From: Zeus faber
Lineage: Eukaryota > Chordata > Actinopteri > Zeiformes > Zeidae
Assembly: GCA_960531495.1 (NCBI GenBank)
Contig: OY482854.1
Coordinates: forward strand, 12,677,121 to 12,741,120
Length of the DNA: 64,000 nt
Reading direction: 5' to 3'
Shown here: positions 35,452-57,310 of the stretch, in pieces
Position numbering within the stretch: the stretch's first letter is position 1
Layout of the letters: the number at the start of each line of letters is the position of its first letter
Made by a program: the position numbers and the translations under genes
Notes under the pieces: generated by a model
Databases searched by the model: none
What the model saw: the letters and a program-made list of their open reading frames with translations, nothing else
Told to the model about the DNA's origin: nothing

Positions 35452-35602
35452 GGGTGCACCGGTCCTGGAGGTACTGCAATACCAGGTCGATGCGTGGAGT
35501 GGACGGAGCAAGCCCCTGTTCCATCTCCCTGCTCCAAAAATCAATTTAATATATGGTCCCCGGGTAGGGGACGTATCAGATATTAAACTGATAAGAACAG
35601 AT
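35452..35602 (-). pseudogene. Canonical U2 snRNA second copy, nt 38-188 (split by K3)
   Basis: 151 nt identical by eye to nt 38-188 of the intact gene at 11804, including stem IIb, Sm site and 3' end. The flanking sequence also matches the intact locus. The LINE 3' end starts at 35603. With the 30 nt at 37593-37622 this was one U2 gene; nt 31-37 are gone. Confidence 0.95.
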
Positions 35603-36043
35603 TTTTTTTTTGATTTTAAATGTTTTTATTCGACAACCATTAACAGTACATTTGCAACACACCTCACATCCCTTCACCGTGGCCCCCTAAATACATACTT
35701 CACCACATAAGCGTCCCTACACCCCTTGTGTGCCCCTATATCACCCCCAAACCTCCCTTAAAAGTCCCACGTCCCTCCCATCCCTCAAGTGCACCTCCTG
35801 CAACAAACAGATGGTGCAGCCCAACCCCTCAACGAAATCAAAAACCGCCCTCCTTTTAACTGAATCCCTCATTCCCCGTGCGTTAATTGTGACTATCCCC
35901 AACCCATTCATTGCGCGTGTAGTTTTGTACCAGCCAAATGGGACGATACAACCTGACGAACAAGAAAGAAAAAGAAACACAAAAAACGAGACCAAAAACC
36001 CCATGCACCCATTAGAATCCAATACATGCAACCCGATCCCCAT

Positions 36044-37525
36044 CTACAAAAACCCTTCTTGGTTGTCGCTGTCCAGGTCTGCCCACGAGTAGGGCATGGC
36101 GTTTGGGGATGCAGAGGGCCACATCGGCCCTTCATACCCGTCCAAAGACACGGGGGAAAAGCTAAACCCCGGGGAATAGACTGCCCCCCCCCCTCCTCCC
36201 ACCTCTACCCCCTCCATGTGGAACAGCCTCCCCCCGTCCCCTGGCCCGCCCTCCGTTGGAGAGGCCCCCCCTCTCACCTCCCTCTGCCTCTTGGAGACCT
36301 CCGCGCCCACCTGGTTCTCGTCCCTCCTCTTCCTCTGCCCCGCCCCTGTGGGGGTTGGCCAGGAGAGGTCTGCTGGCAGTGCTGCCGTCGCCACGGGAGT
36401 TGCCGCCGCCGCCGCAGCCGCAGGAGCTGCCTTAGCCGCCGCCAAAGGAGCCACCGCAGGAGAAGCCGCCGTCGCCGGAGCCGCCGCCGCCACCGCCGCT
36501 GGAGGAACCGATGCCGCCGGAGGAGCCGCCGCCGCCGTCGCCGCCGCCGGAGGAGCTGCCGCTGCCGCCGCAGGGGGAGCCCCCGCCGCCGCCTCCGGAG
36601 GGACCGCCGCTGCCCGCGTGGTCTCCCCGGCACGACCCGCAGGAGGCGCGGGCGCCGATCCCGGCACCCCGGCCCGGCCCGCTGCAGCGGCCGCGGCTGA
36701 CGCTACATTAATCCCGTGGTGCTGGGGCCCTTCCCCCGCCGTGGCCTGGGGCTTTCTGCCCACCCACCCCCCCTTGCCTCGTGTGGCGGCCCCCGCGTAT
36801 GTCTTTGCGCAGCCCCTGGCCAGGTGGCCCAGCGATCCGCAGATGTGGCAGGCCCGGGGCTCAGGGCAGTCCTTCGCCTCGTGCCCGGCGACCTGGCAGT
36901 GCCTGCACCTCCCGGGACCGCACGCTCCCTCCACGTGGCCGTGGGTCCTGCACCTTCGGCAGAACGCCGGCTGCCTGGCGTAGTTAAGGTACCCCCTGTC
37001 CGCCCCGATGTTAAAAAAGGCTGGGGGGTGCGCCAACCCCTCGACGCCTACGGGATCCTCCCGCAGCAGCACCTGGTACTGTCGCTTGCCGGTCCAGAAC
37101 CCGTTCGCGTCGTGCAGGCGCCGAGGGGCCGTGAGCAGCTCGGCGTACCCCCCCAGGAAGCCCGCCACTGCCTGGTCGGTCACATATGGGTTGTACATGT
37201 GTACACTCACCATGCGGAAGTTCGGCCTGTCGAGGCTCACGGTCTCGAAGGCCGAGAGGGGCCTCTCCCCCGCCAGGCGCCGGCTCTCCTCCAGCGCCTT
37301 CGCGCACACCTCCTCCTTAAAGAAGGTAACGTCGAAGCTTCTCTCCGGGCTGTGCCACTGCAGGCACAGCACTTCGCCTATTTTTATTTTTAGTGCGCCC
37401 AGCAACACCACCCTCCCAAACAACTACCTTGTCATAGCGACCTCCTGCTCTTCTTTGCACCTGAAGCGCAACGTCGCTCTCAGTCCGGCCCTTGGGACCG
37501 ACTTTGTGTTGTCGGCCTGCTCCAT
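36044..37525 (-). CDS. K3 ORF1: CCHC-knuckle RNA-binding protein of the LINE
   Basis: The start ATG at 37525 fits K1, K5 and K6. One stop interrupts the frame just before LFGRVV (near 37424); after it 459 codons are open. In order: a conserved core (RPNFRMVSVHMYNPYVTDQA), three CX2CX4HX4C knuckles around 36830-36980, a long Ala/Pro/Thr linker encoded by GCC repeats (about 36380-36700), a basic RKRRDENQ stretch and a C-terminus ending SWADLDSDNQEGFL. Proteins of this type bind the LINE RNA. The single stop means this copy would not make the full protein. Confidence 0.75.
36380..36620. repeat. (GCC)n-rich ORF1 linker repeat of K3
   Basis: GCC/GGA-based imperfect repeats encoding the Ala/Pro-rich linker. 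On the opposite strand it produces long Arg- or Ala-rich shadow ORFs that are not genes. Confidence 0.8.
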
Positions 37526-37592
37526 AATATAACAGTGAAGCAGGCCTCACTCGCTCCTCCACTTGCGCCCGCGCGGGTTAAGATCTCTGTAA

Positions 37593-37622
37593 TTGATCTT
37601 AGCCAAAAGGCCGAGAAGCGAT
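37593..37622 (-). pseudogene. Canonical U2 snRNA second copy, nt 1-30
   Basis: Identical to nt 1-30 of the intact U2. The promoter side continues as at 11992, with the same PSE word at 37662-37677. The promoter therefore remains in place upstream of the LINE and could still start transcripts that enter it. Confidence 0.95.
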
Positions 37623-37661
37623 ACCGACAACCTTCTCGGGGCGAGGACGGCATTCCCCGCC

Positions 37662-37677
37662 ATGTCACTCAGGGTGG
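37662..37677 (-). promoter_or_regulatory. Candidate PSE of the second canonical U2
   Basis: CCACCCTGAGTGACAT at the same distance from the start as in the intact gene (about -40 to -55). Confidence 0.5.
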
Positions 37678-38111
37678 CGGTTTAACACTGAACATTTCGA
37701 AAATGTCGAGCCACACCGAGTAAGCACAGGACAAACTAAGCCCTCTAACGTGGCGACGAGGAGCGTGTCACAAAATCCGAATATCAAGCAGAAATGTGCT
37801 TACAAATGTATATTTGAGAGTCTCTTTGCAGAACCGGAAGTCGTCAGACCTCCCCACGGACATTTGACACTAAATGCCGTAAAAACACGCAATTCCGGTG
37901 CTAAATCAACTCTTACTCGTTAAAGTGGCGTAACGTATAAACAATCTTCCTGTTGGAGCTGAACGTTTCTATTATATACTTGTTTGCAGGAATAAATACT
38001 TTATTACTTTATATTGTCCGCACTTCCGGGTGACGTCATTGTGTGTGCGCGCGTGCGTGTTTGTGCGTGTGTTTTAAAAATTGATGACGTACTGTATAAA
38101 GATTAATATTT
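37678..38111. other. U2 upstream region, duplicate of 12048-12480
   Basis: Same motifs as there (CTTCCGG and TGACGTCA near 38026-38040). No gene seen. Confidence 0.5.
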
Positions 38112-38803
38112 GTACCCCAACTTTGAATTACCTTTTGAGTCTTTTTATTTTATTTTATTTATATTATTCTATTCACTAACTGCATTACTGCATTATTACT
38201 GTGCATAATCCCCGGGCGCCTTGAAAAGACATTTCACTGCATATATGTATAAACATATGTACATGTATGTGACAAATAAACCTCTTGAATAAAGATAATG
38301 ATACTTTATAAATCCCCATACATACATACATACATACATACATACATACATACATACATACATACATACATACATACATACATACACACAGGCATCCATA
38401 TATATACGCACATATATACAGATAGACATATGTGTATGAACATATACATATAAAATAATTACTGTACTATATAATAGAAATATAATAAAATATAATTTAA
38501 CTTAGTGTAAGGTAAAAGCTTAAAAGTGGAAGTTAAATATGAAGTAAAAATGTGCCTTGTGCATTGCCGTTCAGAGGAGGAGTTTCCTCTCCTGGCACAG
38601 AGGGGAGTCCTTGTCGGTGGCTATTGAGGTGGACAGGGACGACCTCCTGTCACGGTCCTTATTGCAGCGGAGCTGAAGGAGCCTCTGGCTGAAGACTCTG
38701 TTGTCTGACCAGTAGGTTGTGTAGGGAGGTGCAGCGTTGTCCATTATGCTGATAATATGTATGTATATGTATATGTATATGTATATGTATATGTATATAT
38801 ACA
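38112..38803 (-). mobile_element. LINE 3' end with (CATA)n and (GTATAT)n, duplicate of 12481-13167
   Basis: Same coding remnant (SDNRVFSQRLLQLRCNKDR), (CATA)n at 38320-38385 and (GTATAT)n at 38756-38803. Confidence 0.55.
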
Positions 38804-56578: not shown

Positions 56579-56645
56579 GATACGACGGATGAAGCAGGCC
56601 TCACTCGCTCCTCTACCTCCGCCGCGCGGGTTAAGATCTTTGTAA

Positions 56646-56675
56646 TTGATCTTAGCCAAAAGGCCGAGTAGCGAT
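56646..56675 (-). pseudogene. U2 snRNA, nt 1-30, 5' of K6
   Basis: The minus strand reads ATCGCTACTCGG, then CCTTTTGGCTAAGATCAA: one change (T to A) from canonical U2, so stem I is of the canonical and not the perfected type, although the upstream spacer is of the variant class. Copies in this array are therefore mosaics. Confidence 0.85.
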
Positions 56676-56720
56676 CCCCTGTCATTGTTTGGCTCCAACG
56701 TTGGGCTCTTGCTCAAGTTC

Positions 56721-56853
56721 TCTCCATTTGGGGTGGAGGTTTGCTCGTTTGTACAGCAACGGCTCCCAGTTTGCACCTCCCTCATCTCTTGCTTCCTAAA
56801 CTTCTGGGAAATCACTACGTTTACAGGAATATTATTTCCCAGCATTTGGGAAA
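56721..56853 (-). promoter_or_regulatory. Variant-U2 promoter elements (PSE-like 56721-56736, SPH-like 56835-56853)
   Basis: CCACCCCAAATGGAGA and TTTCCCAAATGCTGGGAAA at the same distances as in the other two spacers; one base of the PSE-like word differs. Confidence 0.45.
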
Positions 56854-56875
56854 GGGAGGTCAAAAATCTGAGCAT

Positions 56876-56945
56876 CCTTGTTGGGAATTGAACGCCGGCC
56901 TCCTGCGTGTAAGGCAGGGATACTGGCAAATATATACTAACAAGG
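56876..56945 (-). tRNA. tRNA-Asp-like sequence (anticodon position TAC)
   Basis: Same 70-nt sequence as at 24180-24249. Confidence 0.65.
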
Positions 56946-57159
56946 GGCCCACATCAGCAAATTCACTGAGCAAGGGTGGAAAATACTTTTTGCAGCAAGC
57001 TAAAAGGAACTGCAGACAGATGGTTCCAAAATGGACAATCTCACTGGGCAAAACAAAAGTTCTGATATATGATGTAGCCTGATCTAAAACTGAATGCCTG
57101 TTGAGAGCTGACTCTTTCCAACTTTTGCATTCATCATAATTATGTTTACAAAGGCAGTG

Positions 57160-57310
57160 GGGTGCACCATTCCCAGCAGCACTGCAATACCAGGTCGATG
57201 CGGGGAGCGAATGGAGCAAGCTCCTATTTCGCCTCCTGCTCCTAAAAATCCATTTAATATGTAGTCCCCATATAGAGAACGTATCAGATATTAAACTGAT
57301 AAGAACAGAT
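57160..57310 (-). pseudogene. Variant U2 snRNA, nt 38-188, 3' of K7
   Basis: 151 nt, the same as 24463-24613 by eye. The LINE begins at 57311. Confidence 0.85.

Follow-up and report, generated by a model that had tools for sequence, protein, structure and literature searches.

The U2 snRNA genes and element copies in the window

The window, which is the whole stretch of 64,000 nucleotides of Zeus faber DNA that was analysed, contains one intact U2 snRNA gene and four U2 3' parts identified by Rfam, all on the minus strand, and copies of a LINE designated K1 to K7. Short U2 heads (nt 1–30) were located by blast within the window. The features are as follows.

11801–11991, minus: intact U2 gene of the C10 type with an empty target site (Rfam RF00004, 194 bits); empty counterpart of the K3 unit
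21113–23949, minus: K2, 5' end at U2, internally deleted, 3' end lacking; the 5' part nearly duplicates K5
23950–23979, minus: U2 nt 1–30 head upstream of K2 (blast)
24460–24613, minus: U2 from nt 38, downstream of K1 (Rfam, blast)
24614–25536, minus: K1, rearranged, the last ~400 nt of the element fused to the ORF1 repeat region, no 5' end; near-duplicate of K7
35449–35602, minus: U2 nt 38–191 downstream of K3, matching the intact C10-type gene at 100% identity (Rfam, blast)
35603–37592, minus: K3, a copy of the internal-deletion derivative D1 that keeps both ends; most of ORF2 gone, ORF1 stopping after 33 codons
37593–37622, minus: U2 nt 1–30 head upstream of K3 (blast)
46645–47504, minus: K4, internal element fragment without ends
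47508–47574, minus: U2 nt 38–104 downstream of K5, adjoining K4 (blast)
47575–51556, minus: K5, both ends present, with internal deletions and disrupted reading frames
51557–51586, minus: U2 nt 1–30 head upstream of K5 (blast)
52066–52214, minus: U2 from nt 38, downstream of K6, C1 type (Rfam, blast)
52215–56645, minus: K6, both ends present and no window copy longer; ORF1 has lost much of its length, and ORF2 is interrupted
52345–54909, minus: part of K6 ORF2, reverse transcriptase (RT) and zinc finger, 854 aa (Pfam RVT_1 1.5e-31, zf-RVT 1.4e-6; PDB LINE-1 ORF2p 2.6e-59)
54950–55184, no strand assigned: 235-bp insertion in K6 ORF2, with a 98% copy at 32318–32549
55293–56513, minus: K6 ORF with APE endonuclease domain (Pfam Exo_endo_phos 2.2e-12; PDB 2v0s, listed as LR1, 0.0036)
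56646–56675, minus: U2 nt 1–30 head upstream of K6 (blast)
57157–57310, minus: U2 from nt 38, downstream of K7 (Rfam, blast)
57311–58250, minus: K7, rearranged, 3' end only; near-duplicate of K1

Large parts of the window are duplicates of each other with 97.8–98.9% identity (11962–15094 and 37593–40719, 15217–21975 and 40752–47504, 23486–31326 and 56182–64000, 21868–25013 and 49465–52613), and the copies in it have been multiplied by segmental duplication and are not all independent. The first-pass annotation had credited K3, K5 and K6 with both ends and K1, K2 and K7 with one; these ends are indeed preserved, but K3, K5 and K6 are broken and the independence of the copies does not hold throughout. 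A compensatory change in stem I of the U2 heads of K2 and K5 was considered and set aside as unproven, since the two heads are duplicates and the change represents a single event.

The element occupies one point in U2

In the window, all five element 3' junctions adjoin U2 nt 37–39 (nt 38 of the truncated U2 parts at 24613, 35602, 47574, 52214 and 57310) and all four 5' junctions adjoin U2 nt 29/30, in every case in the sense of U2, as the first-pass annotation had described for the boundaries after nt 30 and before nt 38 and for the common orientation. The U2 3' flank starting TCTGTTCTTATCAG, a mark of the Keno family, was present at 5/5 of the 3' ends. Because the terminal A's of the element run into an A at U2 nt 38, boundaries at 37/38 and 38/39 are indistinguishable; a second lineage on C1 reads GATCA|GTTTC, not GATCAA|TTAC, which places the 5' boundary at nt 29 or 30. 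When the empty C10-type unit was compared with the K3 unit, the alignment ran to U2 nt 30 and restarted at nt 38, and 7–8 nt of U2 were missing at the filled site (empty/filled pair in the window).

Element ends were then sought in the 803-Mb genome from which the window comes. A 17-nt 5'-end motif matched exactly at 76 places, all inside the two U2 loci (C1, 71; C10, 5), and a U2 head preceded the motif in 44/44 places read among the 76; 30 of these 44 were favoured because the query used to retrieve them carried the U2 head, and the other 14 were retrieved without such a query. A tail motif free of any U2 letters gave 81 matches genome-wide, and U2 followed at the same point in 80 of them (79 by pattern, C10:11868026 by reading). 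The only match away from U2, and thus the only off-target candidate among the 81, was C1:2254492 at the edge of the C1 array; the closest 5' end upstream of it (C1:2247575) matched the U2-head-bearing query at 271/271 positions. Chance origin of the motifs was ruled out by reversed-pattern controls (0 versus 76 matches for the 5' motif, 0 versus 80 genome-wide matches for the tail plus U2 flank). Both junctions thus recur at other U2 genes of this genome, as the check proposed earlier required.

These pattern counts are lower bounds, as the tail pattern skips K5, K6, a copy on C11 and three long C1 ends (2211445, 2017855 and 1854667) that were recovered by blast; adding these six gives at least 87 3' ends, and all six adjoin U2 (1854667 by coordinates only). 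On C1, 8 3' ends had no upstream match to the 5' motif and 3 5' ends had no 3' match. Four of those eight were inspected: C1:1809736 possesses a U2-flanked 5' end overlooked by the exact motif, that in L075 starts in the U2 spacer, and those in L076 and L077 extend past the stretch read. A 27-kb part of C1 (L039–L041) contains 9 intact U2 genes, 5 U2 heads and 5 U2 3' parts adjoining elements. At 74/76 of the C1 3' junctions an A run of 4–23 including A38 was found, the other 2 having no run after the motif. The diverged copy on C11 (84–89% identical) also sits at a U2, and no U2 match was found in a search at an old diverged copy on C21 (L043). As observed, nearly all element ends that could be placed share a single U2 position and the orientation of U2, about 7–8 nt of the target (from U2 nt 30/31 to 37/38) are gone, and the element closes at its 3' end with a run of A's whose length varies.

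Array duplication accounts for much of the copy number, so that the 81 ends do not equal 81 insertions. It is improbable, however, that the site preference mostly reflects a single old insertion that segmental duplication and gene conversion have carried through the U2 array. The mosaic of duplicates in the window, the many C1 copies with identical ends and the recurrence of shifts such as ~22.2 kb and ~62.2 kb between copies would all fit such a history, but the same junction occurs in C10-type units (K3, C10:11868026) and in C1-type units, at a C10-type U2 within the C1 array (L038) and at the diverged C11 copy, and it is common to two element lineages.

Proteins of the element and its family

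Both ORFs are open in at least one copy (C1:1793023–1798379), and others carry internal deletions. The window copies, by contrast, are broken or duplicated, and the earlier view of the window as a good reference for the family was not borne out. ORF1 is of the CCHC type, and a single 1051-aa frame on C1 (L040:6847–9999) comprises an APE endonuclease, RT and zinc finger by Pfam. The stretch at 52345–54909, earlier described as the ORF2 reverse transcriptase, is a real ORF (854 aa), but an RT and a zinc finger are all that Pfam detects there; the endonuclease part is found past the 235-bp insertion. Exo_endo_phos was found in 2/4 window ORFs scanned and in the C1 ORF2. The endonuclease match to PDB 2v0s, which we take to be a LINE-1 endonuclease, was weak (0.0036), and the open C1 ORF2 carries TINARG, LQEVH, GGDFN and SDHD, presumably APE motifs. 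The best PDB matches of the RT were of LINE-1 type (1e-59 to 9e-59; top match 8c8j, 1e-59, named RNA-directed DNA polymerase) and R2 reached only 7.2e-20; the RT was assigned by this PDB comparison to the L1 group, as expected of Keno.

According to the available portions of PMC4640811 and PMC6136364, Keno (Kojima and Fujiwara 2004) is a Tx1-clade LINE specific for U2 snRNA genes with fish among its recorded hosts; its 3' target in U2 is given as TCTGTTCTTATCAGTTTAAT (PMC6136364), and its endonuclease is of the APE type, whereas that of Utopia is restriction-like (RLE; PMC4640811). The consulted passages describe for Keno no 5' boundary, target deletion or internally deleted derivatives. The element described here shares with Keno the APE endonuclease and the flank TCTGTTCTTATCAGTTTAAT, a likeness by description and not by sequence comparison. 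The earlier proposal of Keno or a close relative agrees with the 3' target and with an APE rather than RLE endonuclease, and the element is placed in the family by its target, its enzyme type and its group. We are highly confident that a U2-specific non-LTR retrotransposon of the Keno type resides in the U2 snRNA genes of the Zeus faber genome. Utopia, the other U2-specific LINE lineage (NeSL clade), has the same U2 3' flank as Keno and hence the same 3' junction as our element, but is described in the consulted parts of PMC4640811 as having a restriction-like endonuclease, generally one protein and a different RT lineage, so that with an APE domain, RT and zinc finger in one open frame and an RT far nearer LINE-1 than R2 this identity is refuted on enzyme type and scarcely credible. 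Pfam, which may have no such model, listed no restriction-like endonuclease at E 0.001 in the ORFs scanned.

Two internal-deletion derivatives

A Keno-type element is known in kind, and the present case is an unusually clear one; what is new are two internal-deletion derivatives, D1 (15 copies) and D2 (32 copies), counted by junction patterns. Together they make up 47/81 of the 3' ends by tail pattern, or 47 of at least 87 with the blast ends added, and shortened copies are about half of the copies found. Size classes are distances between ends and not sequences. D1 and D2 are each tied to a different element lineage; in the lineage tree they were labelled by size and the D2 copy C1:1807323 was left out, the assignment by junction being made later. 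D1 is present in both U2 loci (C1 and C10), and D2 is on C1 only (32/32). K3 and C1:1787036 (D1) and C1:1807323 (D2) were read end to end and keep both ends and the exact target. C1:1787036 has an open 488-aa ORF1 and a largely deleted ORF2, while ORF1 of K3 is not open. The shortened copies are probably dependent on full-length helpers.

We consider it an evenly balanced proposition that D1 and D2 are two independent ORF2-less derivatives (one with an open ORF1), one per lineage, which are trans-mobilised, pass from the U2 locus of one chromosome to that of another and account for about half of the copies, i.e. a parasite of a parasite in a spliceosomal RNA gene array, of the SIDE kind that the available part of PMC3414825 calls not observed for L1. 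That they are array duplicates never moved by reverse transcription is a serious possibility, somewhat short of even: D2 is restricted to C1, array amplification is evident, and the C10 copy of D1 could be due to gene conversion. Against this, K3 is close to a C1 D1 (2017 aligned columns with 8 mismatches and 15 gap positions), yet is flanked by a promoter and a U2 that are both of the C10 type, and a conversion tract would need to end within roughly 30 nt on either side; A runs also differ in length, though slippage could do likewise.

As described in the portions consulted, the R2 SIDEs of Drosophila (PMC3414825) resemble D1 and D2 in having an internal deletion and keeping both ends of a site-specific LINE and the exact target, but they possess a 5' ribozyme and are shorter, D1 and D2 still having the region of ORF1 and a portion of that of the endonuclease. 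No known self-cleaving ribozyme was found by Rfam in 701 bases around the K6 5' end at E up to 5, where only a weak U2 match appeared. HAL1 (half-L1) of mammals, an L1-group element that kept ORF1 and lost ORF2, is like C1:1787036, but is not described as target-specific in the available text of PMC5753468, in contrast to D1, whose copies lie within the two U2 loci. Titles and abstract openings returned by a literature search contained no mention of Keno deletion derivatives.

Proposed mechanism and occupancy of the target

The U2 promoter would transcribe the element. The U2 upstream region is kept in six filled units, and the two unlike upstream regions have CCACCC..AGTG in common about 44–60 nt upstream, a possible PSE-like motif. 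ORF2p may nick the U2 bottom strand opposite nt 38/39, with the A tail serving to prime reverse transcription; the small target deletion would come from a second nick, further upstream, near nt 29/30. The ORF2-less D1 and D2 might be copied in trans by full-length copies and further multiplied by unequal exchange in the U2 array.

By pattern counts, 189 empty U2 target sites with at most one mismatch stand against 81 3' ends, i.e. ~30% of the counted sites are occupied, and the assembly thereby shows how a parasite with one fixed target lives alongside a family of essential RNA genes. An APE LINE with so strict a target might also serve as a tool for site-specific insertion, and this one genome provides empty units matched by filled ones, U2 genes of two types, and an element with two lineages and with deletion derivatives.

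Junctions of the element with U2 genes

In the window (G000:C10:12677121-12741120 of an assembly with 803 Mb and 153 contigs), Rfam detected a single intact U2 gene (11801-11991) together with four 3′ parts of U2, all on the minus strand, and blast added four heads of U2 nt 1-30 and one piece of nt 38-104. The LINE had been reported in the first-pass annotation to lie at one exact U2 position, which was borne out at all junctions: in element sense, (A)TCTGTTCTTATCAG directly followed the 3′ end in 5/5 cases, and ..GGCTAAGATCAA or the variant ..GGCTGAGATCAA directly preceded the 5′ end in 4/4. 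The core TCTGTTCTTATCA was found at eight places in the window (five 3′ junctions, the intact gene and two in a U2-like plus-strand remnant). When the intact U2 unit of the same window was taken as the empty site for K3, a copy with both ends, the two units aligned as far as U2 nt 30, and their alignment resumed at nt 38. The U2 loss is therefore seven nt (nt 31-37) or eight, the latter being possible because A38 can be assigned to the A tail and because a second element lineage, whose 5′ junction reads GATCA|GTTTC, does not retain nt 30. By this alignment and this reading, the claimed U2 30/38 junctions are correct to within one base per side.

Decayed, inverted U2-like 5′ halves lie at 11030 and 35098 (plus strand), downstream of both C10-type U2 copies of the window, with the target core TCTGTTCTTATCAG intact and unfilled; similar inverted matches were seen in two other stretches (L038 and L010). 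The U2 heads of K2 (23950-23979) and K5 (51557-51586), which belong to copies that are duplicates of each other, carry a changed stem-loop I (GGCC..GGCTAAG to AGCC..GGCTGAG), in which pairing seems to be maintained or strengthened.

The same junctions also recurred elsewhere in the genome. A 17-nt motif of the 5′ end gave 76 exact matches, 71 on the C1 plus strand (1.748-2.248 Mb) and 5 on the C10 minus strand (12.658-12.734 Mb), and its reversed pattern had no match genome-wide. Of the 76 places, 44 were read, and a U2 head preceded the motif in 44/44; 30 of these came from a query containing the U2 head and were hence favoured, and 14 did not. Nt 30 was A in 14 heads, two of which are followed by a slightly variant sequence after the junction, and G in 30; one of the 44 heads had an extra T in its loop. 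On the 3′ side, the tail motif without U2 letters matched 81 times (77 on C1, 4 on C10), 80 of them at U2, and the tail plus U2 core pattern matched 80 times (76 on C1, 3 on C10, 1 on C11; 0 genome-wide for the reversed pattern). The two sets differ by the C11 copy, C10:11868026 (U2 from nt 38 on after the tail, one core base changed) and C1:2254492 (tail, then non-U2 sequence, at the C1 array edge). Six more 3′ ends outside the tail motif also adjoin U2 (K5, K6, the C11 copy and three on C1). Empty target sites with at most one mismatch numbered 189 genome-wide by pattern count, with individual places given for the first 100, and occupancy was thus ~30% (81 ends vs 189 empty sites).

The C11 copy is older (84-89% identical), and its 3′ junction is the same; the U2 part that it adjoins shares 95% identity with the C10 gene. 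Site specificity therefore predates the copies present today. On C21, a copy of similar age had no U2 match. Fragments of an older relative, 74-79% identical to the element, lie at 8232-8584 and 33303-33843, and U2 blast of the window found no U2 part beside them.

The element shows a strict site, fixed orientation, a small target deletion and APE and RT domains, and an A run ends 74/76 C1 junctions (length 4-23 counting A38). By analogy with what is established for target-primed reverse transcription, the first nick would fall opposite U2 nt 38/39, reverse transcription would be primed on the A tail and a second nick would follow upstream. In six filled units that were compared by alignment, the region upstream of U2 is preserved, and a block ~44-60 nt upstream is common, perhaps by chance, to both unlike U2 promoters; the element is therefore likely transcribed from the U2 promoter.

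Proteins and relation to Keno

K6 and K5 retain APE endonuclease, RT and zinc finger, and the RT matched LINE-1-type chains at 1e-59 to 9e-59 vs R2 at 7e-20. ORF1 matched both ZCCHC3-type RNA-binding domains of Pfam, and a zinc knuckle only at the cut-off (20.7 and 21.0 bits vs the 20.8 threshold). Both domain models matched at 36044-37423 and 49978-51840 (minus strand); judged from these matches, the domains seem to be common to LINE ORF1 and the cellular gene ZCCHC3. None of the three window copies tested (K3, K5 and K6) had both ORFs open. The copy at C1:1793023-1798379 has an open ORF1 (542 aa) and an open ORF2 (1122 aa, including TINARG, LQEVH, GGDFN, SDHD and YADD), and a second C1 copy, 1799013, has an open ORF2 of equal length, 1051 aa of which (the part in stretch L040) matched Exo_endo_phos (1.3e-13), RVT_1 (2.2e-31) and zf-RVT (8.4e-7). 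A 235-bp repeat (54950-55184) is inserted in K6 ORF2, with a 98% copy at 32318-32549, and UnaL2-type LINE 3′ elements (Rfam RF00436) lie at 13418-13471 and 39053-39106 (minus strand).

In the portions of the literature drawn on here, Keno is a U2-specific family that occurs in animals, carries an APE and shares its 3′ flank with Utopia, for which downstream U2 starts at nt 39 (PMC4640811); the Keno target is TCTGTTCTTATCAGTTTAAT (PMC6136364). Our element agrees with these published descriptions in APE, U2 specificity, 3′ flank and target, and its assignment to Keno or a close relative is supported as far as testable. It adds one more member to an already known kind; its deletion derivatives and two-locus setting may be of specialist interest.

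Two U2 loci

The C1 locus is a tandem array of ~670-bp units, of which 27 kb read through contained 9 intact U2 genes and, adjoining elements, five heads and five 3′ parts of U2. C1 genes are ~86-90% identical to the C10 gene, and four intact ones in C1 stretch L041 scored 172-180 bits as U2; the C10 genes seen sit in longer, duplicated units. The gene types of C1 (1.74-2.25 Mb) and C10 have unlike upstream regions, and both score as real U2. K1, K2, K5, K6 and K7 adjoin C1-type U2 or spacer, and K3 lies in a C10-type unit. Window positions 11962-31326 and 37593-64000 are largely a mosaic of big duplications (97.8-98.9% identical). Since block duplication has also raised copy number on C1, we put no figure on independent insertions; the settings that are most clearly distinct are K3, C10:11868026, C1-type units, a C10-type U2 lying in the C1 array (L038), and C11.

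Internal-deletion derivatives

Relative to the C1:1793023 copy, K3 lacks positions 2011-5203 (derivative D1) and the C1:1807323 copy lacks 2268-5187 (derivative D2). The D1 junction occurred 15 times genome-wide (14 on C1 and K3 on C10), and the D2 junction, confined to C1, 32 times; reversed patterns of both gave 0 matches. The 77 C1 tail matches split into 14 D1, 32 D2 and 31 neither, and the derivatives make up 47 of 81 3′ ends including K3, or 47 of at least 87 with the six further ends. Among 40 C1 copies with the 5′ end read, D1 was of the A30 lineage in 8/8 and D2 of the G30 lineage in 20/20, indicating that they arose in different lineages; in the other 12, neither derivative was seen within 2.6 kb (10 belonged to the G30 lineage and 2 had the variant A30 head).

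K3 differed from a C1 D1 copy by 8 mismatches and 15 gap positions over 2017 columns, but on either side, to within ~30 nt of where the element is inserted, the flanks of K3 were C10-type and those of the C1 copy C1-type. D1 in both loci is most simply explained by reverse transcription into a new U2, and a conversion whose two breakpoints lie close together is a less simple alternative. D1 resembles both R2 SIDEs, internal-deletion derivatives of a site-specific LINE (PMC3414825, in a passage of which the authors state that an L1 SIDE was not observed), and HAL1, described in part of PMC5753468 as an L1 derivative with ORF1 only. The element part of one D2 copy (L075, C1:1764701-1766000) starts inside apparent U2 spacer, not U2, and this copy was therefore cut or rearranged on its 5′ side.
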